DNA of 13,396 nucleotides from Oscillospiraceae bacterium (lineage in GTDB: Bacteria; Bacillota; Clostridia; Oscillospirales; Ruminococcaceae). The stretch spans positions 1 to 13,396 of the forward strand of contig JAEDLA010000014.1 in NCBI GenBank assembly GCA_016295545.1, in the 5' to 3' direction. Below, piece by piece: positions 1-13,396 of the stretch. Numbering within the stretch: position 1 is the first letter of the stretch; each line of letters opens with the position of its first letter. The notes under the pieces are model-generated. The model had not been told where the DNA came from and did not search any database. It worked only from the letters and a program-made list of their open reading frames with translations. Both the position numbers and the translations under genes were made by a program.

Positions 1-1828
1 CCTTGTTCACGTTATTGCCGTCAATACCGCTGATAAATACGTTTCCGTCATCAGTAATGTCGATTTTAACATTGCAGTCAGCAGAAATCTTCTGAATAAC
101 CTTGCCGCCCTGACCGATAACTTCACGAATCTTGTCAACTGGAATCTTTGTCTGAACCATTTTTGGAGCGTACTCATTTACAGTAGCTCTCGGTTCAGGA
201 ATAGCCTTGAGCATAATTTCGTCGAGGATATAGAGACGAGCCTTTCTTGTTTTCTCGAAAGCTTCCTTGATGATAGCAGGAGTAAGTCCGTCCACCTTAA
301 TATCAACCTGAATAGCGGTGATACCCTTGTGAGTACCGCCGACCTTGAAGTCCATATCGCCGAAGAAGTCCTCAAGTCCCTGAATATCTACCATAGTCAT
401 GAAATCATCACTGTCGGGGAGAGTGATAAGTCCGCAGGAGATACCTGCAACGGGAGCTTTTATCGGTACGCCTGCGTCCATAAGAGCAAGAGTAGAGCCG
501 CATATTGAACCCTGTGAGGTTGAACCGTTGGAGGAAAGAACCTCTGAAACAAGTCTGAGTGCGTAGGGAAATTCCTCAACGGGAGGAATAACAGGAGCTA
601 AAGCTCTTTCAGCAAGAGCACCATGACCAATTTCACGGCGTCCCGGACCTCTGCTTGGCTTTGTTTCACCAACGGAGTAGGACGGGAAGTTGTACTGGTG
701 CATATATCTCTTTGACTCCTCCTCGTCAAGACCGTCGATTTTCTGAGCGTCGCTTACAGGTCCAAGTGTACAGATGGTAAGAACCTGTGTCTGACCTCTT
801 GTGAAAAGACCTGAACCGTGAACTCGTGGTAAAAGACCGGCTTCAGCAGCAAGAGGACGAATTTCGTCAATACCTCTGCCGTCAACACGCTTGCCCTCGT
901 AAAGCCATGCACGGACAATTTTTTTCTGGAGCTTGTAGATGCACTCGTCAATCATAGCAATCTGCTCAGGATAAACCTCGTCGAACTTATTGTGGATATC
1001 CTCGATAATGGGAGCAAGTCTTGCATCACGTACAGTTTTGTCGTTGGTGTCAAGAGCAACCTTAACACGGTCAGCTGCAAATTCCTCAACAGCATCGAAC
1101 ATATCGTGGTCAACTTCCTGAGATTCAAAGGTGAACTTGGGTTTGCCGATCTGAGACTTGATATCCTCGATGAAAGCAACCATTTTCTTGATTTCCTCAT
1201 GACCTTTGAGGATAGCGTCAAGCATAGTATCCTCAGGAACCTCATTTGCACCTGCTTCAATCATAACGATTTTTTCAGCAGTACCTGCAACAGTAAGAGT
1301 AAGGTCTGTTTTAGCTCTCTGTTCAAGTGTGGGGTTGAGGACGATCTCGCCGTCAACAAGACCAACGTTGATGCCGGCAATAGGACCGTTCCAGGGAATA
1401 TCTGAAATGGAAATAGCGATAGAAGTAGCGATCATGCCGGTGATTTCAGGGGAATTGTCAGGTTCAACGGCAAGAACAGTCATAACGACAGAAACGTCAT
1501 TGCGCATATCCTTTGGGAAAAGAGGACGGATAGGTCTGTCAACGCATCTTGAAGTAAGGATAGCCTTTTCGGAAGGCTTGCCCTCACGCTTTGTAAATGA
1601 ACCGGGAATCTTGCCTACGGAGTAAAGTCTCTCCTCGTAGTCAACGGAAAGGGGGAAGAAATCAACGCCCTCTCTTGGCTTGGCGCTGGCTGTAACGTTT
1701 GCCATAACGACGGTATCGCCGTATCTTACCCAGCATGAGCCGTTGGAAAGTCCGCAGGTCTTGCCTGTTTCAACGACTAATTTTCTGCCGGCATAGGTTG
1801 TTTCAAATGTCCTGTAGTTTTCAAACAT
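1..1828 (-). CDS. pnp: Polyribonucleotide nucleotidyltransferase (PNPase), C-terminus beyond window
   Basis: Phosphorolytic 3'-to-5' exoribonuclease that degrades RNA to nucleoside diphosphates, normally a cytoplasmic trimer. The reverse strand is open from an ATG at 1828 to the window edge, giving 609 codons of the roughly 700 usual. The order fits the family: a first RNase PH-like domain at the N-terminus, a helical linker, then a second RNase PH domain carrying the phosphate-binding GSTSQGS (residues about 435-441) and the metal-binding GDMDFKVGG (about 490-498). A KH domain with the GQGG loop (about 572-575) follows. The S1 domain must lie past position 1. AGGAGG at 1839-1844 sits 10 nt before the start. 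It follows rpsO on the same strand, the standard arrangement, but has its own promoter (2013-2041). No frameshift was seen. Identification is secure. Confidence 0.97.
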   Translation of the reverse strand, partial: MFENYRTFETTYAGRKLVVETGKTCGLSNGSCWVRYGDTVVMANVTASAKPREGVDFFPLSVDYEERLYSVGKIPGSFTKREGKPSEKAILTSRCVDRPIRPLFPKDMRNDVSVVMTVLAVEPDNSPEITGMIATSIAISISDIPWNGPIAGINVGLVDGEIVLNPTLEQRAKTDLTLTVAGTAEKIVMIEAGANEVPEDTMLDAILKGHEEIKKMVAFIEDIKSQIGKPKFTFESQEVDHDMFDAVEEFAADRVKVALDTNDKTVRDARLAPIIEDIHNKFDEVYPEQIAMIDECIYKLQKKIVRAWLYEGKRVDGRGIDEIRPLAAEAGLLPRVHGSGLFTRGQTQVLTICTLGPVSDAQKIDGLDEEESKRYMHQYNFPSYSVGETKPSRGPGRREIGHGALAERALAPVIPPVEEFPYALRLVSEVLSSNGSTSQGSICGSTLALMDAGVPIKAPVAGISCGLITLPDSDDFMTMVDIQGLEDFFGDMDFKVGGTHKGITAIQVDIKVDGLTPAIIKEAFEKTRKARLYILDEIMLKAIPEPRATVNEYAPKMVQTKIPVDKIREVIGQGGKVIQKISADCNVKIDITDDGNVFISGIDGNNVNK

Positions 1829-1858
1829 ATTATAAATGCCTCCTGTAAATTTTTTTCC

Positions 1859-1919
1859 GGCTTTAGCAATAAACTCTGACACAGAATTCAGGCTGTACCA
1901 CAGTTTAATGCTAAGAGCC
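1859..1919 (-). promoter_or_regulatory. Long hairpin in the pnp 5' leader
   Basis: Arms 1859-1875 and 1902-1919 are complementary: 4 bp (GGCU/AGCC), one bulged base, 6 bp (UUAGCA/UGCUAA), one mismatch, then 6 bp (UAAACU/AGUUUA). The stem ends about 14 nt before the pnp ribosome binding site, inside a predicted leader of about 180 nt. PNPase in enterobacteria is known to autoregulate through a leader stem cut by RNase III. A similar role here is inference from position and shape. Confidence 0.55.
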
Positions 1920-2012
1920 GATTTGAACTTGATTTTTGACCTTAATTATTGACTGGCAGTACGATTCCGGATTAAGTGCAGGGAAAAACAGGAATCAACA
2001 CTGCTATATCGT

Positions 2013-2041
2013 ATTATAACATTTTGCCTGTTATCTGTCAA
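2013..2041 (-). promoter_or_regulatory. Sigma-A type promoter of pnp
   Basis: On the reverse strand a perfect TTGACA (2036-2041) is separated by 17 nt from a perfect TATAAT (2013-2018). Transcription should start near 2006, giving a pnp leader of about 180 nt. The promoter lies between the rpsO terminator and pnp, so pnp can be transcribed independently of rpsO. Confidence 0.88.
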
Positions 2042-2080
2042 GATACCGGCAAATACTGATAATAATACTATTACAGACGT

Positions 2081-2111
2081 AAAGGCAGAGGGAAAAATCC
2101 GTCTGCCTTTT
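2081..2111 (-). terminator. Hairpin terminator after rpsO
   Basis: AAAGGCAGA (2081-2089) pairs with TCTGCCTTTT (2102-2111), making a stem of about 9 bp that begins 13 nt past the rpsO stop codon. Read from rpsO, the hairpin ends in a short U-run (GCCUUU) broken by ACG, so termination may be partial and some rpsO transcripts may read on into pnp. Confidence 0.65.
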
Positions 2112-2124
2112 GCACGCACAAGGA

Positions 2125-2391
2125 TTACTTACGGATACCGAGCTTTTCGATAGTGGAGCGGTATCTGTTGATATCCTTTTTCTTGAGATAGTTAAGAAGG
2201 TTACGTCTGTGACCAACCATTTTAAGAAGACCTCTTCTGGAGTGGTGGTCATTCTTGTGAACCTTGAGGTGTTCAGTAAGGTCGTTGATTCTTCTTGTAA
2301 GAATAGCGATCTGAACCTCAGGTGAACCTGTGTCGTTTTCGTGAGTTCTGTTAGCTTCGATAACAGCAGTTTTTTCTTCCTTCAATAACAT
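2125..2391 (-). CDS. rpsO: 30S ribosomal protein S15
   Basis: Primary 16S rRNA-binding protein of the small-subunit platform. The 88-residue product is the normal S15 length. It carries the family's rRNA-contact region, LTEHLK followed by [12 protein letters not shown], then the C-terminal basic stretch [15 protein letters not shown]. The ATG at 2391 is chosen over an in-frame GTG at 2400 because it gives the usual N-terminus ([11 protein letters not shown]) and has GAGGTG at 2398-2403, 6 nt away; the GTG would overlap that site. It precedes pnp, the near-universal rpsO-pnp pairing. S15 often represses its own mRNA, and the leader here looks structured enough for that. Confidence 0.97.
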
Positions 2392-2504
2392 TGAAAGCAC
2401 CTCATTATAATAATATTCCGCTGACGTAGGCAGGGGTGAAGTTCAGGCAAAAGGCTCGCCTGTGAAACAGCCATCGAGGACAAGCCCCTGTCCAGGTACA
2501 CGGT
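2392..2504 (-). promoter_or_regulatory. Structured rpsO leader, candidate S15 autoregulatory element
   Basis: The predicted transcript starts near 2504, leaving a leader of about 113 nt. Two hairpins are visible: GGACA/UGUCC with loop GGGGCU (2478-2493) and CAGGC/GCCUG (2444-2462). CCCCUG at 2431-2436 can pair with CAGGGG at 2485-2490, which covers the loop and part of the first stem. This gives either a pseudoknot or an alternative fold. S15 is known to repress its own mRNA through leader structures in several bacteria. No specific known motif was recognised, so the assignment is inference. Confidence 0.5.
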
Positions 2505-2510
2505 GATATT

Positions 2511-2539
2511 ATTATATCATATAAATCCGTAATTGTAAA
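2511..2539 (-). promoter_or_regulatory. Sigma-A type promoter of rpsO
   Basis: On the reverse strand TTTACA (2534-2539) and a perfect TATAAT (2511-2516) are separated by 17 nt. The expected start is an A near 2504. The 128 bases between this promoter and the rpe promoter (2540-2667) hold no gene. They contain only a weak hairpin, GAAATCTG at 2599-2606 pairing with CAG and ATTTC at 2612-2621. Confidence 0.85.
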
Positions 2540-2667
2540 GGGGTTCTGCAAAATTTTTTTCTTGCCGGAAACATTTTTTCAGTGGAATTTTACTGACAGA
2601 AATCTGGAAAACAGAAATTTCACGGAAGTCTGAAACAAAAAAGTTCCAAAAAATTATCCCAAGTATA

Positions 2668-2696
2668 TTGACGGCAGATAATAAATATTATATAAT
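2668..2696 (+). promoter_or_regulatory. Sigma-A type promoter of the rpe-rnfDEA operon
   Basis: TTGACG (2668-2673), 17 nt, then a perfect TATAAT (2691-2696). Transcription should start near 2703, about 54 nt before the rpe start codon. It is divergent from the rpsO promoter. No other promoter was recognised before rnfD, rnfE or rnfA, so the four genes are probably co-transcribed. Confidence 0.85.
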
Positions 2697-2756
2697 AAAG
2701 TATAGTAAGTTTTTAATGATATATTATCAGAAGTCAAAATTGGAAGAAGTGATTTT

Positions 2757-3416
2757 TTGAAAAATTATGTTTCCGCTTCAATACTCAGTGCGGATATGCT
2801 TAATCTTGAAAAAGAGGTCTGTCGTCTTAAAAACAGCGGTATAGATATGCTGCATTTTGATGTTATGGACGGCATTTTTGTAAACAATATAACCTATGGA
2901 CTGCCGGTGCTGTCGGCAATAAGAAAAATAACGGATATGACGCTGGACGTTCACCTTATGATAACAGATCCCATACGCTATGTTGAAAGATTTGCGGAAA
3001 ACGGTGCGGATATTATCTCATTTCACCTTGAAAGTCAGAGCAATACAACTGAGACTATACGTGAGATAAAATCAGCCGGAGCTAAGGCAGCTCTTGCTAT
3101 AAAGCCTGCTACTCCTGCTGAGGTGGTCTATGATTATCTGCCTTACCTTGATATGCTCCTTGTGATGACTGTTGAACCGGGCTTCGGCGGACAGAGCTTT
3201 ATGCCCGATGCCTGTGCAAAGGTAAAGCCGATACGTGAAAGGATATTAAGTCTTGGCATTGACTGTGATGTTCAGGTGGACGGAGGAATAGACAGCATTA
3301 CTGCGGAAACAGCAAAAAAAGCCGGAGCAAATGTGCTTGTGTCGGGCAGCTACCTTTTCAGGGCAGAGGATATGAGCGCAGCAGCGTCTGAGTTAAAGGA
3401 AGAAACAGGATGCTGA
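2757..3416 (+). CDS. rpe: Ribulose-phosphate 3-epimerase
   Basis: Interconverts ribulose 5-phosphate and xylulose 5-phosphate in the pentose phosphate pathway; a cytoplasmic TIM barrel. The 219-residue product is normal length. It shows SASILSAD at the N-terminus, the metal and catalytic motifs HFDVMDG and DVHLMI, the loop VEPGFGGQ (VNPGFGGQ is commoner), and VDGGI with the second catalytic aspartate. The usual NPATP loop reads KPATP, so a closely related sugar-phosphate epimerase remains possible. The start is TTG at 2757: it gives the standard N-terminus, GGAAG lies at 2742-2746, and the next ATG would remove the first strand. The stop overlaps rnfD by 7 nt, suggesting translational coupling to a membrane module with no evident metabolic link. 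Confidence 0.93.
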   Translation: MKNYVSASILSADMLNLEKEVCRLKNSGIDMLHFDVMDGIFVNNITYGLPVLSAIRKITDMTLDVHLMITDPIRYVERFAENGADIISFHLESQSNTTETIREIKSAGAKAALAIKPATPAEVVYDYLPYLDMLLVMTVEPGFGGQSFMPDACAKVKPIRERILSLGIDCDVQVDGGIDSITAETAKKAGANVLVSGSYLFRAEDMSAAASELKEETGC

Positions 3417-4582
3417 ACAAAAAAAGAAAAGAACGGCATATCTGGATAGATATAATCATAACTCTCCTTGCTCTTGAGCTTATGGCGTACTTCTATTACG
3501 GCATGAAAGCGCTGATGCTGGGAGGAGTCTGCATTGCAGTTTCTCTTGCTGCGGAGCTTATCACACTTCGTCTGCTTCACCGTAAATTCACCGCTGACGA
3601 CCTTACCTGCACCTCAGACGGACTGATAACAGCCCTGATGATGCCTGCGGCAATTTCACTCCGCATTCCTGCAATTGCCTGTGTATTTGCAGTGATAGCG
3701 GCAAAAAATATCTTTGGCGGCAGACATAATATGATTTTTTCACCGGCGGCAGCAGCGTATCTCTTTGTGCTCACCTCGTGGAAAGACCAGCTTCTCAGCT
3801 GTCCTCAGCCTTATGATAAAATGGGCATATTTGAAAAGGCAGAGAACGTTTCCTACTCTGCTTCATATATTTTCAATAACACCGGAAAATTTTCCGCTTC
3901 GGACTACGAGATACTTCTTGGCAGCTTTGCCGGTCCTATGGGAGCAGTATGCATACTTCTGCTGCTTGTATCGGCGGCTGTGCTGATTTTCAGGAAAGAT
4001 ATTTCCATAGGCGCATTTGCCGGGACGATTTTCGGAACAGCATTTATGGCTTATGTCTGCCCAGTTATTTCAGACAGAATTGCTTCTGTAAAATATGTCC
4101 TTGTGACAAATATGATTCTTTTTGCAGCTATATACATTATTTCCGACATGAGAATCGCACCACAGAAAAATTACTATGCCTTTTTCTACGGACTTTTTAT
4201 TGCTGTAAGCGCATATATTGTGATGCTGACTACAGGTAAGGAAAATGTAATAGTGATCATGTCTGTACTGTTTACGCCTCTTGCACTTGCTTTCAGAAGC
4301 CTTGAAAAGAAAATCGATACAGCTGCACATCTTGAAGCACTGGAGGCTGCTGAAGCTGAAAATGCCTCTGAAACCGGTGCAGCTGCTTCGGAGACAGAAA
4401 ATGTCTCCGTAAATGAGGAGGAAAATGAAGTCTCAGCGGAAGAAGCTTTGTCCGCTGAAAGTGATTCACCTGAAGCTGAGCCTGAAAAATCAGACGTAAG
4501 TGATGCTGAAACAACGGAAGAAGCTCAGGAAAATACTGCTGATGAAGCACCGGAAGGAGATGAAAGCAATGAAAAGGTCTGA
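3410..4582 (+). CDS. rnfD: RnfD/NqrB-family membrane subunit with acidic C-terminal tail
   Basis: Integral membrane subunit related to RnfD (Rnf ferredoxin:NAD oxidoreductase) and NqrB. Family signs are a short basic cytoplasmic start, paired hydrophobic helices, SDGLITALMMP (residues 69-79), then KNIFGG and NMIFSPA (99-113), equivalent to the usual K.LFGG...NIFNPA. More helices run to about residue 295. Normal family members attach FMN to a threonine in an SGAT-type motif; the corresponding stretch here reads SYSASYIFNNTG (148-159), with no such motif. Residues from about 308 to 390 are an Ala/Glu/Ser-rich, strongly acidic tail that standard RnfD lacks, probably disordered. AAGGA at 3396-3400 supports the ATG. 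It overlaps rpe by 7 nt and rnfE by 14 nt. The family is fairly sure; electron-transfer function is doubtful. Confidence 0.82.
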   Translation: MLNKKRKERHIWIDIIITLLALELMAYFYYGMKALMLGGVCIAVSLAAELITLRLLHRKFTADDLTCTSDGLITALMMPAAISLRIPAIACVFAVIAAKNIFGGRHNMIFSPAAAAYLFVLTSWKDQLLSCPQPYDKMGIFEKAENVSYSASYIFNNTGKFSASDYEILLGSFAGPMGAVCILLLLVSAAVLIFRKDISIGAFAGTIFGTAFMAYVCPVISDRIASVKYVLVTNMILFAAIYIISDMRIAPQKNYYAFFYGLFIAVSAYIVMLTTGKENVIVIMSVLFTPLALAFRSLEKKIDTAAHLEALEAAEAENASETGAAASETENVSVNEEENEVSAEEALSAESDSPEAEPEKSDVSDAETTEEAQENTADEAPEGDESNEKV

Positions 4583-5195
4583 AAACAGGCTTACCTCCGG
4601 ACTTTTTGCGGATAATACAGTTCTTTCTGCCTGCATGGTAATATCTCCTGCAATAATGTGCGGCGATACAATAAAAAATGCCATTGCCCTGATTTACGTT
4701 TTCACTGCAATAACACTTCCCTCAGTTCTCATTGCTTCATTTGTGCCGAAAAGGCTTCCCTATGCCGTGAAAATAATAATCTATGCAGTTATCTCCTCAT
4801 TGATATATATTCCTGTAAAGATACTTGCCGAAAACTATTATCCGGAGTCGATTGCAAGAATCGGGATATATTTCCCTCTGATAGCAGTAAATTCCCTGAT
4901 AGTTTATCAGACAGAAGCAAAATTTTTCAGAATGAAGCGGACGAAAATGATAGGTTCGCTGATATTCTATGTATTCGGTTTTGACGCTGTAATGCTTATT
5001 ACAGGCTTTATCCGTGAGCTTTTTGCCTATGGCACCATAAACAGCAGAATGGTCGATATGAATACAGTCATAAGCGGTCTTGGAAAGCCTTTCGGCGGAT
5101 TTATTTTTCTCGGTCTTATGTGCGGAATCTACAGAAAGATACGTTCCATGATTCCTGAGAAAAAGGTAAGGAGTGATGTAAATGTTTCTGATTAA
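4569..5195 (+). CDS. rnfE: RnfE/NqrD-family membrane subunit lacking usual Fe-S cysteines
   Basis: A 208-residue, roughly six-helix membrane protein of the RnfE/NqrD family. Recognisable blocks are NTVLSACMVISPAIM (residues 16-30), corresponding to the family's NPVL...GLCPALA, then PLIAVNSLIV (103-112) for PLIVVNCIIL, FIREL with a following YGT, and KPFGGFIFLGL near the C-terminus. In RnfA/RnfE and NqrD/NqrE pairs, two cysteines from each subunit hold a [2Fe-2S] cluster inside the membrane. Both aligned positions are serine here (S26 and S109), although C22 and C31 lie close to the first. The ATG at 4569 is chosen because AAGGAG at 4554-4559 is 9 nt upstream; longer in-frame starts lie inside rnfD and add a charged extension. 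Overlaps rnfD and rnfA by 14 nt each. Confidence 0.8.
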   Translation: MKRSENRLTSGLFADNTVLSACMVISPAIMCGDTIKNAIALIYVFTAITLPSVLIASFVPKRLPYAVKIIIYAVISSLIYIPVKILAENYYPESIARIGIYFPLIAVNSLIVYQTEAKFFRMKRTKMIGSLIFYVFGFDAVMLITGFIRELFAYGTINSRMVDMNTVISGLGKPFGGFIFLGLMCGIYRKIRSMIPEKKVRSDVNVSD

Positions 5196-5754
5196 CGAGC
5201 TTATTTCACTTCTTGCCGCAAATATGATACTTACCCGTGCTCTTGGAACAAGTACGCTGTTTATTGCATCAGGCAGCAGAAAAAATCTTGTAGCCACAGC
5301 TTCTGTAATAACACTATTCACAACCTGTGGTTCAGCCGCAGCATATCTGATAAATTACCTTTCAGGCGGGAAATACAGCAATTTTATACTGCTGTTTTAT
5401 ACCCTTGCTGTGGGAATAATATATATAATTCTTTTAGCGTTATTTTACCTCTTTTTCAGACAGGGCTTTGATAAGGTCAGAAAATATATCCACCTTTCCG
5501 CCTTTAACTGCGCAGTTATGGGAACTCTTTTCACTATCAGCGAAAGCAGCTCCAATTCTGCTGAGGGCATGAGCTTAGGGGATTTCCTGTTTTACGGCTT
5601 TGAATCCGGTGCAGGCTTTGTTCTTGCTGCTCTTATCCTGTCTGCCGCTTTCGGGAGACTTAATTCCTCCCGTGTACCATCTTCCTTCAGGGGATTTCCG
5701 GCAATGCTTGTGTATCTGGGAATAATTTCCATGGCTGTTTATTCATTAAAATAG
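5182..5754 (+). CDS. rnfA: RnfA/NqrE-family membrane subunit, one Fe-S cysteine retained
   Basis: A 190-residue, roughly six-helix membrane protein, normal RnfA length. Family landmarks are ANMILTRALG (residues 13-22), SAFNCAVMG (106-114), YGFESGAGFVLA, and a C-terminal VPSSFRGFPAML close to the usual VPKAFRGLP. The first iron-sulfur cysteine (LGICPF in standard RnfA) is serine here (LGTSTL, S24); the second is kept (C110). With rnfE it would form the inverted pseudo-symmetric core of an Rnf-like complex. AAGGAG at 5168-5173 lies 8 nt before the ATG. It is the last gene of the operon, followed by a repeat-rich gap. No rnfB follows it, unlike standard rnfCDGEAB operons. Confidence 0.82.
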   Translation: MFLINELISLLAANMILTRALGTSTLFIASGSRKNLVATASVITLFTTCGSAAAYLINYLSGGKYSNFILLFYTLAVGIIYIILLALFYLFFRQGFDKVRKYIHLSAFNCAVMGTLFTISESSSNSAEGMSLGDFLFYGFESGAGFVLAALILSAAFGRLNSSRVPSSFRGFPAMLVYLGIISMAVYSLK

Positions 5755-5786
5755 AGAAAAAATATACTTAGAGAGAAAAATATACT
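5753..5786. repeat. Short imperfect tandem duplication after rnfA
   Basis: AGAGAAAAAATATACT (5753-5768) recurs as AGAGAAAAATATACT (5772-5786), one A shorter, with a period of about 19 nt. The first copy begins inside the rnfA stop codon. No function is evident; replication slippage or a remnant of an insertion are both possible. Confidence 0.6.
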
Positions 5787-5796
5787 GAACAGCTTC

Positions 5797-5970
5797 AGGC
5801 AACACCGCACAAAGAGCGCCTGCCGGCTTTGCACGTCATAAGCTTGCATATTTTCCGTCATATTTCACAAAAATGCTCGTGAATACACAAAGTATTCACT
5901 GCGCTTTTTGTTTCATCTGACGAAAAATCTGACGGCGCATCTGACGCACAATCTTTGTGCGGTGTTGCCT
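5797..5970. mobile_element. MITE-like fold-back element with 19-bp terminal inverted repeats
   Basis: AGGCAACACCGCACAAAGA (5797-5815) has its exact reverse complement at 5952-5970, bounding a 174-bp element with no coding potential. The interior is also largely self-complementary. A perfect 8-bp hairpin, GTGAATAC/GTATTCAC (5879-5899), forms the tip, flanked by AAAAA/TTTTT, GTCA/TGAC and TTTTC/GAAAA pairings. The whole element can therefore fold into one long imperfect stem. Such a size and shape fit a non-autonomous miniature inverted-repeat element. No clear target-site duplication is visible, so insertion is inferred. It occupies most of the 257-bp gap between rnfA and the next gene. No promoter was recognised there. 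Confidence 0.75.
5915..5950. repeat. Three 12-bp direct repeats inside the fold-back element
   Basis: Three consecutive 12-base units, ATCTGACGAAAA, ATCTGACGGCGC and ATCTGACGCACA, share ATCTGACG and differ in the last four bases. A fourth ATCT begins the right terminal repeat. The opposite arm carries only degenerate complements (CGTCATA, CGTCATAT), so the array is more regular than base pairing alone would require. Confidence 0.7.
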
Positions 5971-6011
5971 TATGAAAAAATATTTATGGCAAAATTTAGG
6001 AGAGAAATAGA

Positions 6012-7202
6012 ATGAAAATCAGAAATAAGGGAAGGAAAATTTACAAAACAAAAGAAAAAAATTATTACGGGAAAAGTCCTTTCGGAAAATTCATGTCAGG
6101 GGCACTTTCGGTTCTTCTTATCGGCGGACTTGGCTTTTTAGGCTACAGCGTTGCCGAACCTATAATCAACTATACCAGAAAAGCAGGTGACGAGGAGCCT
6201 TCCGCTTCTGTAACAGAAACAAAAGAACAGACAGAATCCTTTTCAGCTGATGTTACAGGCAATTCTGTAGACGTAATGGATAATATAAGCGTGGAGCAGT
6301 ACAAAGCAGCTTCGGTCAGAACTGAGGATATGAACAGTACTGAATCACTTGCAGCCGCTCTTGAAAGGGTACCCTCTGATACGGAGTATATTTCCGTGCC
6401 TCTTAAAGCAAAAGGCGGAGGAATTTACTACGCAAGCTCAGTTTCCGAAGCAGGTCTTTGCGGAGCAGTAAAGTCAGCGCTTACTCTGAATGATATTACC
6501 ACAACCGTAAAAGCAGCCGGCTTCAAGCCTGTTGCAGAGCTTAGTCTGCTCAATGACAGTATCTTTCCGGCAGCCTATCCCGATGCAAGCTATAAAATTG
6601 CTGACGGCGGCTCAATGTGGATAGACGATGCCCTTGAAAATGGCGGAAAGCCCTGGATGACGCCGATGTCTGACGTTACACGCAGCTATCTTTCGGCTCT
6701 GGGTGATGAGGTTGCAGCAGCCGGTTTTGAAAAGGTGATCTGCGGAGATGTGATATTTCCTCCTTTCAGGGAATCTGACCTGACGCTTCTTGGCGAGGAA
6801 GTTAAGAAAAGTGACAGGTATCTTTCGCTTACCTCTCTTGTTAATTCGCTGTACAGCAAATTTATCAGCGGCGGTACAGCTATGATGCTGGAGGTATCGG
6901 CTGCTGAGCTTCTTTCCGGAGGCGGAGAAGTTATCCAGCCAATGGTGCTTGATGTGAACACTCTTGTGCTGAACGTTGACTTCGATGAGATAGGACAGTC
7001 GGTCACTGCGCCGGATACAGTCTACGAATTCAGCGGAACAGCTAAGGAAAATGCTGAAAAAATCATAGGACTTGTTAAGGATAGACTTTCCGATTATAAC
7101 GTAGTTGTACGCTTTTCGGGAAAAAATACGGAACAGTCTGAGCTTATCAAGGCAAAGGAAGTTATTTCCGGCTACGGATATTCTTCATATATAATTGGAT
7201 AA
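6012..7202 (+). CDS. Membrane-anchored DUF4015-like (putative glycoside-hydrolase fold) protein
   Basis: A 396-residue protein with a Lys/Arg-rich cytoplasmic start, one membrane segment at about residues 28-48 (signal anchor, no lipobox or obvious cleavage site), a Ser/Thr/Glu-rich linker to about 105, then an extracytoplasmic domain. That domain follows the pattern of the DUF4015 putative glycoside-hydrolase family: KGGGIYYASS early, a KPVAELSLLND segment, W(I)DD...GKPWMTP, and AAAGFEKVICGDVIFPPF (about 235-252), matching the family's ..GFDEI.FDYVRFP. The usual DYVRFP is degraded to GDVIFP, so catalysis is uncertain. AGGAGAG at 5998-6004 lies 7 nt before the ATG. It stands just after the fold-back element and 53 nt before hprK. 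Substrate and role are unknown; a wall-associated role is a guess from murB nearby. Confidence 0.6.
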   Translation: MKIRNKGRKIYKTKEKNYYGKSPFGKFMSGALSVLLIGGLGFLGYSVAEPIINYTRKAGDEEPSASVTETKEQTESFSADVTGNSVDVMDNISVEQYKAASVRTEDMNSTESLAAALERVPSDTEYISVPLKAKGGGIYYASSVSEAGLCGAVKSALTLNDITTTVKAAGFKPVAELSLLNDSIFPAAYPDASYKIADGGSMWIDDALENGGKPWMTPMSDVTRSYLSALGDEVAAAGFEKVICGDVIFPPFRESDLTLLGEEVKKSDRYLSLTSLVNSLYSKFISGGTAMMLEVSAAELLSGGGEVIQPMVLDVNTLVLNVDFDEIGQSVTAPDTVYEFSGTAKENAEKIIGLVKDRLSDYNVVVRFSGKNTEQSELIKAKEVISGYGYSSYIIG

Positions 7203-7255
7203 AAGGCAGTATTGCCTGAAATAAATACCGATAAATTTCGGGGAACGGAGTTATT

Positions 7256-8215
7256 ATGGCAGATAAATTTAAGGTTTCGCTTGAAAAGATTATTGATGAA
7301 TTTAAGCTTGAAACGATCTATATTCACAAGGACGCAAAGGAAATCATGATTGATGAAAATGATGTAAACCGTCCGGGACTTCAGCTCATGGGCTTTTACG
7401 AATACTTTAATCCGGAGAGAATTCAGATAATTGGTAAAATGGAATTTGCCTACCTCTCAACAATTGATGAAAAAACAAGGCGTGAAAGACTTCAGATGCT
7501 CTTTGCACAGAGACTTCCTGCACTTATTATAACAAGAGAGCTGCCTTATTTTGCAGAAATGCTGGAGCTTGCAAAGGAGTATGAGGTACCCCTGCTGAGG
7601 AGCAAGGAAAGCACCTCTAACTTTATGTCGGGACTTATTGCGTTCCTTAACCTGAACCTTGCACCAAGAATCACACGTCACGGTGTACTGATAGAAATAT
7701 ACGGCGAGGGCGTTTTCATTACCGGTGAAAGCGGTGTAGGTAAGAGTGAAACAGCTATCGAGCTTGTAAAAAGAGGTCACCGTCTTGTAGCTGACGACGC
7801 TGTTGAGATAAGAAAGGTATCAAACATCAGCCTTGTAGGAAGTTCTCCTGACAATATACGTCATTTCCTTGAGCTGAGAGGTATCGGAATCATTAATGCA
7901 CGCCGGCTTTTCGGTATCGGTGCAGTTAAAATGACCGAGAAGCTTGACCTTGTTGTTGAGCTTGAACAGTGGAATCCTGAAAAGATTTATGACAGAATGG
8001 GCGTTGATACGGAGTTTGTATCACTTCTCGGAGTTAAGGTTCCTCTGCTGACTATTCCTGTAAAGCCGGGACGTAACCTTGCAGTAATCCTTGAAGTTGC
8101 TGCAATGAACAACAGACAGAAAAAGATGGGATATAACGCTGCTCAGGAGCTTCTTAACCGTCTCGGAATGGAGTCCGACGCCAAAGAAGTCATCAAGAGC
8201 TATGATACATTCTAA
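7256..8215 (+). CDS. hprK: HPr kinase/phosphorylase
   Basis: Bifunctional enzyme that phosphorylates HPr of the phosphotransferase system on a serine and reverses the reaction, feeding carbon catabolite control in Gram-positive bacteria. The 319 residues match the family length. An N-terminal regulatory domain precedes the kinase core with HGVLIEIYGEGVF, the Walker A loop GESGVGKS (residues 157-164), VADDAVEI, and the HprK signature LELRGIGIINARRLFG. The C-terminal KPGRNLAVILEVAA block is also present. The start has GGAG at 7247-7250, 5 nt away. It sits 20 nt before murB, with no recognised terminator between them. No truncation or missing catalytic residue was seen. Confidence 0.97.
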   Translation: MADKFKVSLEKIIDEFKLETIYIHKDAKEIMIDENDVNRPGLQLMGFYEYFNPERIQIIGKMEFAYLSTIDEKTRRERLQMLFAQRLPALIITRELPYFAEMLELAKEYEVPLLRSKESTSNFMSGLIAFLNLNLAPRITRHGVLIEIYGEGVFITGESGVGKSETAIELVKRGHRLVADDAVEIRKVSNISLVGSSPDNIRHFLELRGIGIINARRLFGIGAVKMTEKLDLVVELEQWNPEKIYDRMGVDTEFVSLLGVKVPLLTIPVKPGRNLAVILEVAAMNNRQKKMGYNAAQELLNRLGMESDAKEVIKSYDTF

Positions 8216-8235
8216 GACATCTCAGGGGGAGTATT

Positions 8236-9141
8236 ATGTCATACATGAAAGAATTAACAGAGCTTTGCGGCAGACTGGGCTGCCGTATTACTCCGGAATG
8301 TCCTCTGAGCGGATATGATACTTTTAAAATAGGCGGACCTTGCCGTGCGCTTGTCAGCATAAACAGCACTGAAGCGGCTTCGGAGCTTATCAGGTTTCTG
8401 CGTTCGGGCGGGATAAAGTACGGAATTATCGGCAGAGGAAGCAATATTCTTGTGCCTGACGAGGGCTTCGACGGGATAGTTCTCCTTTTTGGCGGAGATT
8501 TTGCTGATATTTCAGTTGACGGAAACAGGATAATATGTCAGTCAGGTGCGCTTCTTGCATCTGCCTGCGTCCATGCTCAGCAGAATTCTCTTACAGGTAT
8601 GGAGAATCTTTTCGGCATCCCCGGAACAGTGGGCGGTGCTCTGTACATGAACGCCGGAGCATACGGCTCAGAAATGGCTGATATCGTGGTTTCTGCTGAG
8701 TATCTTGACACGGAGGGACAGCTTCACACCATTGAAAAGGCTGATATGGAGCTTTCCTACCGCCACAGTATATTCAGCGGCACTAACAATGTTATAACAT
8801 CAGTGACAATGGAGCTTTCAGCCGGAGACAGCAGTGCTGTAAAGGACGCAATGAACGAATGCATGAGGAAAAGAAGCGCTAAACAGCCTCTGGATTATCC
8901 AAGTGCAGGCAGTACCTTTAAAAGACCGGAGGGCAGCTATGCCTCTCTGCTTATTGAGCAGTGCGGACTTAAAGGAATGACCTGCGGAGGTGCAATGGTC
9001 AGCGAAAAACACAGCGGATTTGTAATAAACAAGGGCTTCGCAACCTTTGCAGATGTTTCAGAGCTTTGCGACAATATTATAAAAATTGTAAAGGAGAAAA
9101 CAGGCTATACCCTTGAACTGGAGCCTGTTATTCTGAAATAA
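8236..9141 (+). CDS. murB: UDP-N-acetylenolpyruvoylglucosamine reductase
   Basis: FAD- and NADPH-dependent reductase that converts UDP-GlcNAc-enolpyruvate to UDP-MurNAc, the second committed step of peptidoglycan precursor synthesis, in the cytoplasm. The 301 residues show the FAD-binding blocks GRGSNILVPDEGFDG and IPGTVGGALYMNAGAYGSEM, the YRHSIFSG motif with the active-site arginine, PSAGSTFKRP with the proton-donating serine, and the C-terminal glutamate in LELEPVI. The GSTFKRP form and shorter length point to the type II MurB common in Firmicutes. GGGGGAG at 8225-8231 precedes the ATG. Linkage with hprK upstream and rapZ downstream is typical of Clostridia. Confidence 0.97.
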   Translation: MSYMKELTELCGRLGCRITPECPLSGYDTFKIGGPCRALVSINSTEAASELIRFLRSGGIKYGIIGRGSNILVPDEGFDGIVLLFGGDFADISVDGNRIICQSGALLASACVHAQQNSLTGMENLFGIPGTVGGALYMNAGAYGSEMADIVVSAEYLDTEGQLHTIEKADMELSYRHSIFSGTNNVITSVTMELSAGDSSAVKDAMNECMRKRSAKQPLDYPSAGSTFKRPEGSYASLLIEQCGLKGMTCGGAMVSEKHSGFVINKGFATFADVSELCDNIIKIVKEKTGYTLELEPVILK

Positions 9142-9197
9142 TACTAATGGTCACCTCTTATAACTACCGTCTAAAGCAGAATGGAGAAGTGAATAAT

Positions 9198-10070
9198 ATG
9201 CAGCTGTTAATTGTTACGGGTATGTCAGGTTCGGGAAAGTCCTGTGCTATGGACGTAATGGAGGATATCGGCTACTATTGTATCGACAATATACCGCCCT
9301 CACTTATAAGCCGTTTTGTGGACCTGTGCCGGCATTCCGAAAGTCCTCTCGGTAAAATCGCTGTTGCAGTGGATATTCGTTCGGGAGATATGTTCACACA
9401 GATTTTTCAGGCTTGGAAAGAGCTTAAAAATGATGAGGACATCGAGGTGAAGATACTCTTTCTTGAAGCAAGCGATGAAGTCCTTATAAAGCGTTATAAG
9501 GAGACACGCCGCAAGCACCCTCTTGACGAACGCTTCAACGGAAATCTTCATCAGGCTATAAGGTACGAGTGGGAGCAGCTTTCTCAGCTGAGAGAGGTTG
9601 CCGACTATTATATGGATACCTCCTATCTGTCAGCCAGTCAGCTTAAAGAGCAGATAAAGGAGCTGTTTCTTGAAAGACGGTCTGATTCGCTTTCAATAAA
9701 GGTCATGTCGTTTGGCTTCAAGTATGGTGTTTCTACGGAATCCGACCTTGTTTTCGATGTGAGATGCCTGCCTAACCCCTACTATCTGGAGGAGCTTCGC
9801 TGGCATACAGGCTGCGACCAGTGTGTCAGGGACTATGTAATGGGCTTTGAGCAGTCACAGAAGCTTTTTGAAAAACTTAAAGACCTGATAGATTTCCTTA
9901 TCCCGCTTTATATCCACGAGGGAAAAAGTCAGCTTGTAATTGCATTCGGCTGTACAGGAGGAAAACACCGCTCTGTTACCTTTGCGGAGCTTATTGCAAA
10001 GCATCTTTCCGAAAACGAGTACAGAGTGCAGAAATATCACCGTGACATTACAAAGGATAAACGCTTCTGA
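9198..10070 (+). CDS. rapZ: RapZ/YvcJ-family nucleotide-binding protein
   Basis: P-loop protein of the RapZ (YvcJ) family. In E. coli RapZ is an RNA-binding adaptor controlling glucosamine-6-phosphate synthase through small RNAs; in Firmicutes YvcJ binds and hydrolyses nucleotides and its role is less clear. The 290-residue product has the Walker A GMSGSGKS near its start, RRKHPLDE, then the C-terminal domain with KYGVSTESDLVFDVRCLPNP and FGCTGGKHRSV. The ATG at 9198 is preferred because GGAG at 9183-9186 precedes it and it gives the family start MQLLIVTGMSG. The in-frame ATG at 9147 adds 17 unconserved residues and has no clear ribosome site. The stop is 14 nt before the probable whiA start. 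Confidence 0.93.
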   Translation: MQLLIVTGMSGSGKSCAMDVMEDIGYYCIDNIPPSLISRFVDLCRHSESPLGKIAVAVDIRSGDMFTQIFQAWKELKNDEDIEVKILFLEASDEVLIKRYKETRRKHPLDERFNGNLHQAIRYEWEQLSQLREVADYYMDTSYLSASQLKEQIKELFLERRSDSLSIKVMSFGFKYGVSTESDLVFDVRCLPNPYYLEELRWHTGCDQCVRDYVMGFEQSQKLFEKLKDLIDFLIPLYIHEGKSQLVIAFGCTGGKHRSVTFAELIAKHLSENEYRVQKYHRDITKDKRF

Positions 10071-10071
10071 C

Positions 10072-10087
10072 AGGAGGGATTGTTATA
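10072..10087 (+). promoter_or_regulatory. Ribosome binding site that selects the ATA start of whiA
   Basis: AGGAGG (10072-10077) follows the rapZ stop codon directly. Spacing is 7 nt to ATA at 10085, against 1 nt to ATT at 10079 and 37 nt to the GTG at 10115. No ATG or TTG exists in the whiA frame in this interval, and the only nearby TTG (10080) is out of frame and gives a 16-codon peptide. Confidence 0.7.
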
Positions 10088-11011
10088 TCTTTTTCTAATG
10101 AGGTCAGGGGAGAGGTGTGCTCCTCTGTAAATGACAAGGATAAACGCTTCGCCTGCCTGTATGGAATGATACTTTTCAGCCGTGAAATCACGCCGGAACA
10201 TATATGCTTCCAGACAGAAAGCAGAATTTCAGCTGATATGTTCAGCAGACTTCTTCACAGCGTTTTCGGCAAATCCGTCTGCGCTGCAAGAAGCGAAAAA
10301 ATGCGGAAAAGCGGTCAGGTACTCTACTGCTGTGACATAAGCGGAGCAGAAAACGCCGGAGCAGTGCTGAAAGCCTACAGGATAAATCCGGAGCAGCGCA
10401 GAATAACTCCTGATATCATTGTCAACAACAGTCACGGAGTTTTCATGGCAGGAGTTTTTCTTGCCTGCGGAAGCGTAAATGATCCGGCAAAGGAATATCA
10501 CCTTGAATTTACTGTTCCGGAGGAGGAGCTTTCGGAAGAACTTGTGAATCTGCTGAAGGATATCGGAGTTCATGCAAAAACAATGGTGCGGAGAGGAAAA
10601 TATATTGTCTATGTAAAGGGCAGCGAATCCATTGAGGATACGCTGACCTTTATTGGTGCGCAGCAATGTACTCTGGAGCTTATGAATGTGAAGATATTCA
10701 AGGACGTCCGCAACAAGGCAAACCGTATTGCCAACTGCGACAATGCCAATATAGACAAGGTAATAACTGCATCTCTGCGTCAGACGGAGGATATCAGGCT
10801 TATTGAGCAGACCATAGGAATTGATAAGCTGCCGGAGGAACTGAGGGAGATAGCGGAGCTTCGTCTTTCTGCCGCTGATATGAGCTTAAAGGAGATAGGA
10901 GATGCCCTTGAACCGCCCATAAGCCGTTCCGGAGTAAATCACCGGTTCAGGAGAATTGCAAAAATTGCAGAGGAAATAAGATGCGGAGGTGTAAAAGCTG
11001 ATGAAGCCTGA
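10085..11011 (+). CDS. whiA: WhiA sporulation/division regulator, apparent ATA start
   Basis: DNA-binding protein with a degenerate LAGLIDADG homing-endonuclease-like domain and a C-terminal helix-turn-helix. It is linked to sporulation in Streptomyces and to division and chromosome segregation in Bacillus. Seen here are HGVFMAGVFLACGSVNDP and YHLEF in the first domain, and LREIAELRLS, MSLKEIGDAL and SGVNHRFRRI in the second. The open frame continues upstream of the first standard start (GTG, 10115) through residues aligning with the family opening MSFSSEV: here ISFSNEV begins at ATA 10085, exactly 7 nt after AGGAGG at 10072-10077. From there the protein is 308 residues. Starting at GTG would drop ten conserved residues and has only a cramped ribosome site. 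It overlaps dnaE by 11 nt. Confidence 0.9.
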   Translation: MSFSNEVRGEVCSSVNDKDKRFACLYGMILFSREITPEHICFQTESRISADMFSRLLHSVFGKSVCAARSEKMRKSGQVLYCCDISGAENAGAVLKAYRINPEQRRITPDIIVNNSHGVFMAGVFLACGSVNDPAKEYHLEFTVPEEELSEELVNLLKDIGVHAKTMVRRGKYIVYVKGSESIEDTLTFIGAQQCTLELMNVKIFKDVRNKANRIANCDNANIDKVITASLRQTEDIRLIEQTIGIDKLPEELREIAELRLSAADMSLKEIGDALEPPISRSGVNHRFRRIAKIAEEIRCGGVKADEA

Positions 11012-13396
11012 TAGTTTTGTACACCTGCATCTTCACACTGAGTACAGTCTGCTTGACGGAGCGTGCAGAATAAAAGATGTTTTCAGGCATATCCGGGAAA
11101 TCGGACAGACTGCCGCCGCTATTACCGACCATGGAAATATGTACGGAGCAGTGGAGTTCTGGAAAGCTGCCATAGATGCCGGAATAAAGCCGATAATCGG
11201 CTGTGAGGTCTTGTGCGCTCAGCGAAGCCGTTTCGATAAGGAGGCAGGTATTGACGACAGACCTTATCATCTGACTTTGCTATGTGAAAATAATAACGGC
11301 TACCAGAATCTTATAAAGCTTGTTTCACTGAGCAGCACAGAGGGACTTTGCGGAGGAAAGCCAAGAGTTGACACGGAGCTTCTCATGAAATATCACGAGG
11401 GGCTTATTTGTCTGTCCGGCTGTATGTCAGGAGAGATTCCACGGCTTCTTCTCAGCGGTCAGTACGACCGTGCAAAGGGTACAGCACTGAAATTCAGGGA
11501 TATTTTCGGGGAGAATAATTTCTTCCTTGAGATATGCAATCATGGTCTGAAAAGTGAGCTTTCCATTCTTTCACAGATGTACAGGCTTTCGGCGGAAACA
11601 GGCATACCCATTGCTGCAACAAACGACTGCCACTACATTACCAAAAGTGAAGCGGAGGTTCAGAAGGTTCTGCACTCTATAGGCATGAACAAGCCGGTGG
11701 GCGATAATTCAGTAAACGAGGATAACACCCTTGAAACTGAGGAATACTATATAAAATCTGCCGGAGAGATGTATGAGCTTTTTATCGGACATGAGGAGGC
11801 TGTTGAAATAACTGCCGCAATTGCTGACAGATGTAATGTGGAGTTCTGTTTCGGGCAGATAAGACTGCCTGAGTTCAGAACAGATGATTCGGACGAGGAC
11901 AATCAGAGCTATTTCCGCAGACTTTGCTATGAGGGAATGTACCGCAGATATGGCAGTGCTCTCGACAGCTCCGTTACAGAACGCATGGAATATGAACTGA
12001 GGATAATAACGGAAATGGGCTACACGGACTATTTCCTTATCGTGTGGGACTTTATAAATTATGCACGGAAAAAAAGCATTCCTGTAGGACCGGGAAGAGG
12101 TTCAGGAGCAGGAAGTCTCTGCGCCTATTGCATCGGCATAACCGGAATAGATCCTATGAAGTACAATCTGCTCTTTGAGAGATTTCTTAATCCTGAACGT
12201 GTAAGTATGCCTGATTTCGACATTGATTTCTGTGTTGAGGGCAGACAGGCGGTCAAGGACTACGTCGTCCGCCGCTACGGTTCGGACAGAGTGTCGGAGA
12301 TAATTGCCTTTGATACCCTGAAAGCAAGAGCAGCACTGCGTGATGTGGGACGTATTCTCAACGTTCCCTATCAGCTGTGTGACAAGACGGCGAAGCTTAT
12401 TGAGCAGGGAAGCAGCCTTGCACAGGCAGTAAAAGAGTCGCCAGAGCTTGGAAGTCTTTATCAGTCGGACAGAACAGTCCGCAGACTTATTGACACTGCT
12501 GCAAAAATCGAGGGAATGCCTCGTCATATCACAACTCATGCGGCAGGAGTGGTAATATCTGCTGTGCCGCTGAGTGATATTGTACCCATGCAGAAAAGCG
12601 GAGATGTTGTGATAACTCAGTATGCAGCACCTGTTCTTGAATCGCTGGGACTGCTTAAAATGGATTTTCTGGGACTGAGAAATCTGACTATTATTCGTGA
12701 TGCTGTAAATGAGATACGCCGGAAAGAGCCTGATTTCGACATTGATAAAATACCCTATGACGATAAAGGCGTATATGAGATGCTGTCCGCAGGCGACACA
12801 GGAGGAGTTTTTCAGTTTGAGAGCAGCGGTATCACTCAGCGGCTTATGGAGCTTCATCCGGAGCATATCGGGGATCTTATTGCGATGCTTTCGCTGTACC
12901 GTCCCGGACCGATGAAGTCGATATCCATGTATATTGAAAATAAGCGGAATCCTGAAAAAATCACGTACAAGCACCCTCTGCTGAAAGAAATACTCAGCGA
13001 TACCTACGGCTGTATTGTTTATCAGGAGCAGGTTATGGAGATTTGCCGCCGCCTTGCAGGATACAGCTATGGTCATGCCGATGTGGTTCGCCGTGCTATG
13101 TCCAAAAAGAAGCAGGACGTTATGATGAAAGAGCGTGACAGCTTTGTGGCAGGAGCAGTTTCCAACGGTATTGACAGCCGCACAGCAAATGAAATATTTG
13201 ATGAGATGATGAGCTTTGCTTCATACGCATTCAATAAGTCTCATGCGGCAGCCTATGCCTGCCTTGCCTATCAGACAGCCTACCTGAAATACCATTACAG
13301 GGGAGTGTACACTGCAGCTCTTATGTCCAGTGTTATGGGAAATACAGGCAAGCTTTCGGACTATATCTCCATGTGCAGAAGTGCAGGGATAAGCGT
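11001..13396 (+). CDS. dnaE: DNA polymerase III alpha subunit DnaE, C-terminus beyond window
   Basis: Replicative C-family polymerase. The frame is open from ATG 11001 to the window edge, 798 codons of roughly 1100 or more. Order: PHP domain from HLHLHTEYSLLDG (residues 8-20) through TDHGNMYGA and TNDCHY; the palm with GPGRGSGAGSL, the catalytic PDFDID (404-409, aspartates 405 and 407) and the third aspartate in KMDFLGL (D555); then VFQFES, LYRPGPM and the fingers region VRRAMSKKK with FNKSHAAAY. It lacks an N-terminal OB fold and an inserted exonuclease before the palm, so it is DnaE and not PolC. GGAGGTG at 10985-10991 lies 9 nt before the ATG. The start overlaps the end of whiA by 11 nt. 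Local deviations from consensus occur at residues 412-414 and 438. Confidence 0.96.
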   Translation, partial: MKPDSFVHLHLHTEYSLLDGACRIKDVFRHIREIGQTAAAITDHGNMYGAVEFWKAAIDAGIKPIIGCEVLCAQRSRFDKEAGIDDRPYHLTLLCENNNGYQNLIKLVSLSSTEGLCGGKPRVDTELLMKYHEGLICLSGCMSGEIPRLLLSGQYDRAKGTALKFRDIFGENNFFLEICNHGLKSELSILSQMYRLSAETGIPIAATNDCHYITKSEAEVQKVLHSIGMNKPVGDNSVNEDNTLETEEYYIKSAGEMYELFIGHEEAVEITAAIADRCNVEFCFGQIRLPEFRTDDSDEDNQSYFRRLCYEGMYRRYGSALDSSVTERMEYELRIITEMGYTDYFLIVWDFINYARKKSIPVGPGRGSGAGSLCAYCIGITGIDPMKYNLLFERFLNPERVSMPDFDIDFCVEGRQAVKDYVVRRYGSDRVSEIIAFDTLKARAALRDVGRILNVPYQLCDKTAKLIEQGSSLAQAVKESPELGSLYQSDRTVRRLIDTAAKIEGMPRHITTHAAGVVISAVPLSDIVPMQKSGDVVITQYAAPVLESLGLLKMDFLGLRNLTIIRDAVNEIRRKEPDFDIDKIPYDDKGVYEMLSAGDTGGVFQFESSGITQRLMELHPEHIGDLIAMLSLYRPGPMKSISMYIENKRNPEKITYKHPLLKEILSDTYGCIVYQEQVMEICRRLAGYSYGHADVVRRAMSKKKQDVMMKERDSFVAGAVSNGIDSRTANEIFDEMMSFASYAFNKSHAAAYACLAYQTAYLKYHYRGVYTAALMSSVMGNTGKLSDYISMCRSAGIS

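Follow-up and report, generated by a model that had tools for sequence, protein, structure and literature searches.

An Rnf-like D'-E'-A' gene block with replaced redox-site residues in Ruminococcus and its relatives

What may a set of Rnf-like membrane proteins do once most of the cysteines that hold its intramembrane [2Fe-2S] cluster have been replaced? In C. tetanomorphum, the cluster is ligated by RnfA Cys25 and Cys113 together with RnfE Cys26 and Cys109, as given in an excerpt of PMC9588780. In A. woodii, mutation of the cluster cysteines abolished ferredoxin:NAD activity and growth, according to a section of PMC11889175. The question is raised by a 13,396-nucleotide stretch of DNA, hereafter the window (contig JAEDLA010000014.1 of assembly GCA_016295545.1, positions 1 to 13,396, forward strand), which comes from a gut bacterium akin to Ruminococcus flavefaciens and has Ruminococcus as its nearest relatives. 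An initial annotation had read serine at three of the four ligand positions in a pair of RnfE- and RnfA-like proteins encoded there.

The window was compared with its closest homologues (the best 120 listed for each of E' and A', out of 356 and 425 found; n = 121 with the window) and with a Ruminococcus-type set of 80 loci kept from 90 found. Most of the 80 are titled Ruminococcus; the other titles are Oscillospiraceae, Clostridiales and one Alistipes sp. (L071), a contig that carries a Ruminococcus-type block and is probably mis-sorted. A wider set of 59 members combines 40 loci from a 148-genome sample of the family (a single group by the definition of the genome collection) with 19 from order- and class-wide searches, and the genome of L101 is shared with the Ruminococcus set.

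The D'-E'-A' block and its cofactor sites

The window contains an RnfD-like, an RnfE-like and an RnfA-like gene, termed D', E' and A', in the D-E-A order of the Rnf subunits of PF03116 and PF02508 (Table 1). D' scores 133.5 bits against PF03116 (cut-off 27.7), and E' and A' score 87 and 56.6 bits against PF02508 (cut-off 23.8); all three fall far short of the NCBIfam thresholds for the corresponding Rnf subunits (RnfD, 77.8 bits versus 207; RnfE, 57.6 versus 213; RnfA, 36 versus 229). Their PDB matches are 7zc6_D for D' (RnfD, the best match, 8e-18), 7zc6_E for E' (6e-9) and 9eri_A for A' (3.5e-6). The predicted model of E', with a mean pLDDT of 62 and used solely as evidence of fold, has Rnf/Nqr chains as all of its 18 top fold matches, with E < 0.001 in 2 of 152 matches. 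Among the window frames, read by eye, neither RnfB, RnfC or RnfG nor an NqrA, NqrC or NqrF partner was recognised, and an Rfam scan of the window returned 0 matches. The genes 3' of X are presumably hprK, murB, rapZ, whiA and dnaE. Between A' and X lies a 174-bp element (5797-5970) with 19-nt perfect terminal inverted repeats, and it looks like a MITE-type repeat because a 17-mer taken from its end also turns up in 6 of 258 loci (three copies in L010; L034; L041; L066; L068; L078).

Table 1. Coordinates of the features discussed (positions in the window)
Feature	Position	Strand	Basis or remark
rpe, ribulose-phosphate 3-epimerase	2757..3416	+	PF00834, 241 bits; overlaps D' start
D', RnfD/NqrB-like membrane protein, 390 aa, acidic C-terminal tail	3410..4582	+	PF03116
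E', RnfE/NqrD-like membrane protein, 208 aa	4569..5195	+	PF02508
E' codon 26, Ser at first RnfE cluster cysteine	4644..4646	+	alignment
E' codon 109, Ser at second RnfE cluster cysteine	4893..4895	+	alignment
A', RnfA/NqrE-like membrane protein, 190 aa	5182..5754	+	PF02508
A' codon 24, Ser at first RnfA cluster cysteine	5251..5253	+	alignment
A' codon 110, sole retained cluster cysteine	5509..5511	+	alignment
X, DUF4015-family putative glycosidase	6012..7202	+	PF13200, 35.9 bits, cut-off 27

Pairwise alignments with solved RnfE/NqrD and RnfA/NqrE chains placed E' S26, E' S109 and A' S24 on ligand cysteines and A' C110 on the fourth, in agreement with the initial annotation. Its accompanying statement that the surrounding motifs are preserved has to be narrowed, as the CP of canonical RnfA has become ST in A', where the context is less well kept than claimed. 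Among the window and the best 120 homologues listed for each protein, A' S24, A' C110 and E' S26 are each found in 121 of 121 and E' S109 in 120 of 121. All 81 Ruminococcus-type loci (the 80 and the window) read S,C,S,S at the four positions, which makes the Cys-to-Ser pattern common beyond the window. The 59 wider members keep either none (24) or one (35) of the four cysteines and carry S, A, P, T, G, D, N and other residues instead; none of the 140 block members surveyed has more than one. By comparison, 40 of 41 canonical Rnf controls have all four cysteines and the remaining one has two. Block members with two or three cysteines, which would be intermediates, are absent from these 140; the only partial case, L169/L254, turned out to come from a complete canonical operon. 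This operon, seen in L254 at 7209-8406 and the same as that of L169, comprises C, D, G, E, A and B; its RnfE has glycine at the second cluster cysteine, and its first RnfA cysteine is displaced by one position.

The flavin sites of D' are altered as well. In the window, the Thr, Arg and Glu of the FMN site are S152, Y117 and A179, and at the riboflavin site the Asn is S111 and the Asp is retained as D246. Among the 80 Ruminococcus-type loci, the FMN-bearing Thr is Ser in 78, the nearby Arg is Tyr in 78, and the Glu has been replaced in 79, by Ala, Ser, Thr or Gly. Arg and Glu are lost in 79 of the 80; the wider members have lost both in 59 of 59 and carry Thr in 6 and Ser in 39 at the FMN-bearing position. 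All three FMN-site residues are present in 11 of 11 canonical RnfD rows. The serine at the FMN position might still be a candidate FMN acceptor. The riboflavin ligands of A. woodii RnfD include N123 and D249, as quoted in part from PMC11889175; the equivalent of N123 is Ser in 77 of 80 Ruminococcus-type loci, and that of D249 is present in 80 of 80. The D' linker is a difficult region to align. The tail of the window D' after residue 291 spans 99 aa, about one third of them Asp or Glu, and tail length varies among the other Ruminococcus-type D' proteins. The long cytoplasmic D' tails of L160 and L232-L236 share a motif close to DTQE-I-I-EPVNYNMPPIDNKVTKVKR.

With at most one of four cysteines left, the FMN site of D' lost and neither RnfB nor RnfG in the 59 wider loci, the prediction that a canonical electron path would be broken is supported. 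Judged from these sequences, a loss of redox function in the block appears well supported.

Distribution, history and integrity of the block

Presence of the block in the 148-genome sample was judged from match counts and scores. Three to six Rnf-Nqr matches were found in 101 genomes, a weakly scoring pair alone in 12, a strong pair alone in 21, a single match in 3 and none in 11, by which about 113 of the 148 genomes seem to hold the block; the sampled and wider genomes may be incomplete. All 40 loci read from this sample (the 20 best and 20 further down the list) have the D'-E'-A' triple, though the canonical profile gives D' of L124, L127 and L131 a slightly better score. The order-wide search added 24 loci, of which 19 are block and 5 canonical, and the class-wide search returned 30, of which 6 are block and 24 canonical; in the class-wide search, score alone fails to separate the block from canonical Rnf, and weaker members scoring below the latter would have escaped it. 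The D'-E'-A' block is widespread across the order.

The surroundings of the block are also recurrent. The gene rpe lies directly upstream in 72 of 78 Ruminococcus-type loci with an upstream frame listed (window included) and is present in 57 of 59 wider loci. A MecA-like gene on the opposite strand often lies between rpe and C' or D' in L141-L160 and L215-L253; none was seen between rpe and the block in the window. The outer neighbours (an HtrA-like protease, a histidine kinase, an aldo/keto reductase, a phosphomutase and others) were set aside as a clue to function, being found in just some of 20 loci.

An RnfC-like gene, C', lies between rpe and D' in 16 of 59 wider loci, giving an order C-D-E-A that mirrors rnfCDGEAB minus G and B; profile searches of the 59 wider loci with longer flanks found neither RnfB nor RnfG in the block. 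C' retains two 4Fe-4S motifs but has lost most of the NADH/FMN motifs, with little left of the glycine-rich and QGxEK motifs found in canonical RnfC. The riboflavin-site N together with D or E is found in 15 of 16 members with C' versus 26 of 43 members without it, and the Ruminococcus branch has no C'. In a quick tree built on concatenated D, E and A (100 rows and 704 columns, with the ligand positions excluded), a single branch of support 100 divides the canonical rows from the block members; the tree has three long end branches and 12 rows of odd composition. The deepest block row (L249) carries C', and a 45-row clade that includes the Ruminococcus rows (support 100) has none; the deep rows L242, L244 and L246 also lack it, and the tree requires at least four changes of this trait. 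Since the riboflavin-site residues go with C', which is present in 16 of 59 loci, the sequences suggest a stepwise loss in which the cluster, the FMN site, RnfB and RnfG would have gone first; we infer the direction of loss, because the tree root was set on the canonical rows.

We consider it unlikely that the block is still redox-active with a changed centre, either a metal bound by Ser, Cys or His in A' and E' or a cytoplasmic half-chain of riboflavin in D' and Fe-S in C'. Such a centre could draw on A' C110, present in 81 of 81 Ruminococcus-type loci and 33 of 59 wider members, on A' H104 (81 of 81 and 36 of 59), and on the riboflavin-site residues and 4Fe-4S motifs kept in members with C'. 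Two further cysteines of E' had been proposed as substitutes for S26. C22 is dismissed, as it is Cys in 29 of 121 sequences (the window and the best 120 homologues listed) and thus unconserved. C31 fares better, being Cys in 119 of the same 121 and in all 81 Ruminococcus-type loci, but in just 6 of 59 wider members. C185, which the initial annotation did not mention, is Cys in 113 of 121. C31 and C185 are Cys together in 80 of 81 Ruminococcus-type loci versus 3 of 59 wider members, on which count the pair was rejected as a new metal site of the whole family. C31 and A' C110 would supply two ligands at best, or three with C185, and the E' plus A' core has two cysteines in total in 8 of 140 members; for the Ruminococcus branch, an altered metal site appears improbable. 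Against redox activity also stand the high variability of the ligand positions in the wider set, the lack of RnfB and RnfG at the block for electron transfer, and, in the Ruminococcus branch, the missing C' and the replaced riboflavin-site Asn. A partial redox role is possible in part of the wider family, because some members keep the riboflavin-site residues and, with C', the Fe-S motifs.

Canonical Rnf accompanies the block in almost every genome examined. Each of the 15 Ruminococcus genomes searched carries four PF02508 genes, two of them canonical and two variant, and in all 15 an FMN_bind (RnfG-type) gene adjoins the canonical pair; the canonical Rnf of this group, examined in 12 of the 15 genomes, has all four cysteines, and four of the 15 also yielded the RnfB and RnfC that belong to the canonical operon. 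In the wider set, 55 of 59 genomes have four PF02508 genes, G085, G091, G634 and G494 have two, and RnfB scores above the cut-off in 51 of 59. The joint occurrence of canonical and variant genes, seen in all 15 Ruminococcus genomes and, by PF02508 counts, in 55 of the 59 wider ones, would fit a role of D'E'A' as an accessory or regulatory partner of canonical Rnf, for example by subunit swapping or assembly help. However, co-occurrence is of little weight, because canonical Rnf is common in the family anyway. Moreover, 12 of the 148 sampled genomes seem to have the weak pair only and 21 the canonical pair only, in genomes that may be incomplete; together with 4 of the 59 wider genomes, these 12 seem to carry the block but no canonical Rnf. 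Among the listed genomes, the block and canonical Rnf also occupy separate sites. We rate a partnership of this kind as improbable.

The block is under purifying selection. Nei-Gojobori dN/dS was 0.029-0.168 in 21 of 27 comparisons, values that are rough for several of the 21, where dS > 1.5; the remaining six were saturated or near-identical, three of them saturated D' comparisons and the L069/L070 pair uninformative. D', E' and A' stand next to one another in the window, as they do in 79 of 80 loci; the exception begins inside the block at a contig end. The block is also found in isolate genomes, including R. flavefaciens 007c, FD-1 and ATCC 19208. Gene fusions were discarded as a clue to function, since the long frames, read by eye, are tails or upstream extensions. 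The fixed S,C,S,S pattern and the low dN/dS sustain the initial view of a targeted replacement rather than decay. A decaying duplicate or an assembly artefact, to which the strong divergence from canonical Rnf and the absence of catalytic partners at the locus might point, is scarcely credible, because the replacements are fixed, the frames intact and contiguous and dN/dS low, and isolates carry the block.

Ion-gate residues, the DUF4015 neighbour and a proposed role

Kumar and others (2025) described a Na+ path in RnfA/E, with residues tested in A. woodii, in which Na+ passage depends on cluster reduction (excerpts of PMC11889175). There is no agreement on which Rnf/Nqr subunits carry Na+: one recent study points to A/E, and work that it cites to RnfD/NqrB (PMC11889175). 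In E' of the Ruminococcus-type loci, the equivalent of gate residue R67 is K or R in 81 of 81, L103, V106 and N107 are kept in 81 of 81 and E115 in 78 of 81; in the wider set the counts are 56, 49, 23, 48 and 43 of 59 for R67, L103, V106, N107 and E115, respectively. On the A' side, Y105 is kept in 81 of 81 and in 22 of 59 wider members, E88 has become Leu in 81 of 81, and Q85, T110 and T111 are changed. From these alignments, one half of the gate looks retained (E') and the other rebuilt (A'). The reading as an ion path is weakened by the changed Na+-path residues of A', by V106, which is Val in only 23 of 59 wider members, and by the published dependence of Na+ passage on cluster reduction.

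In 75 of 80 Ruminococcus-type loci, X is the gene that directly follows A', and it is found in 51 of 59 wider loci; of the eight without it, two stop at a contig edge there. Its product combines a conserved basic tail in the cytoplasm, a single membrane helix predicted at 23-46 and a TIM-barrel domain on the outside. The fold matches of the predicted model (pLDDT 82) include 4s1a; the best PDB match is an uncharacterised Ruminiclostridium protein, after which come Cwp19 of C. difficile, GH20 hexosaminidases and the glycosidase domains of PgaB and PelA. Of the sampled genomes, 97 of the 113 with an apparent block have DUF4015, versus 14 of 32 with none apparent (Fisher p = 4e-6, uncorrected for kinship); DUF4015 is thus also found in some genomes that seem to lack the block. 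YkyA domains are fused to DUF4015 or to polysaccharide deacetylases, according to a part of PMC12700454.

We regard it as probable that an old rnf duplication gave rise to a membrane complex that works without redox chemistry and may possibly serve as an ion path linked to an enzyme of the envelope. The rnfCDGEAB operon would have been duplicated long ago in the order of Ruminococcus to yield a second block, C'-D'-E'-A', which then gave up electron transfer; the Ruminococcus branch would later also have lost C' and the riboflavin-site Asn. D', E' and A' would still assemble as an Rnf-like D-E-A membrane core, which, having no transmembrane electron path, would act without redox chemistry. Through alternating access, the E'/A' pair may perhaps still let a cation through (Na+ or H+), and may perhaps cooperate with the outer glycosidase-like X at the cell envelope. 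Because the relatives keep most of the cofactor residues replaced, the former pump seems to have taken on another task, although its new function is one that we infer. A redox-free complex linked to the envelope is favoured on the grounds of the kept gate half of E' and of the fold, position and DUF4015 co-occurrence of X, and an ion path is its likeliest but unproven activity. The most specific form of this proposal, a cation-driven or cation-gated machine that descends from Rnf/Nqr, works without electrons and powers or controls the DUF4015 protein X, is put forward tentatively, as a rather unlikely possibility.

The block offers a natural variant, across much of the order, in which the electron path is gone from A/E and D and E-side gate residues are kept. 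If D'E'A' moves ions, ion passage would be separable from redox chemistry; if it moves none, the fold would have another, unsuspected use. Database names such as 'electron transport complex subunit E' would then be misleading for many gut bacteria.

Comparison with known systems

A description of the D'-E'-A' block was not found in searches of one open-access library and may exist elsewhere. The two-subunit Nqr/Rnf-like complexes resemble the block in having an NqrB/RnfD relative without the flavinylation threonine; they are read as redox systems of two subunits with an FMN-binding partner and a PF00175 domain, as set out in an extract of PMC11334425. In contrast, the D'-E'-A' block has A and E and no FMN-binding partner: D' gave no match to PF00175, and in the 15 relatives searched none of the listed FMN_bind matches is near the block.

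Compared to the Rnf complex (RnfABCDGE) of A. woodii and C. tetanomorphum, the block has homologous D, E and A in the same D-E-A order, an E' fold that matches RnfE, and some of the E-side Na+-gate residues. They differ in the three of four cluster cysteines replaced and the FMN site lost from D', and the window lacks B, C and G. Na+-NQR retains its cluster and flavins (part of PMC12174285), unlike the block, which has neither the cluster nor the FMN site and in which no NqrF or NqrC was seen. However, the two share homologous subunits (NqrB with D', NqrD with E' and NqrE with A'), and Nqr is thought to stem from a duplicated rnf operon, as stated in an excerpt of PMC4014512, an origin also proposed here for the block.
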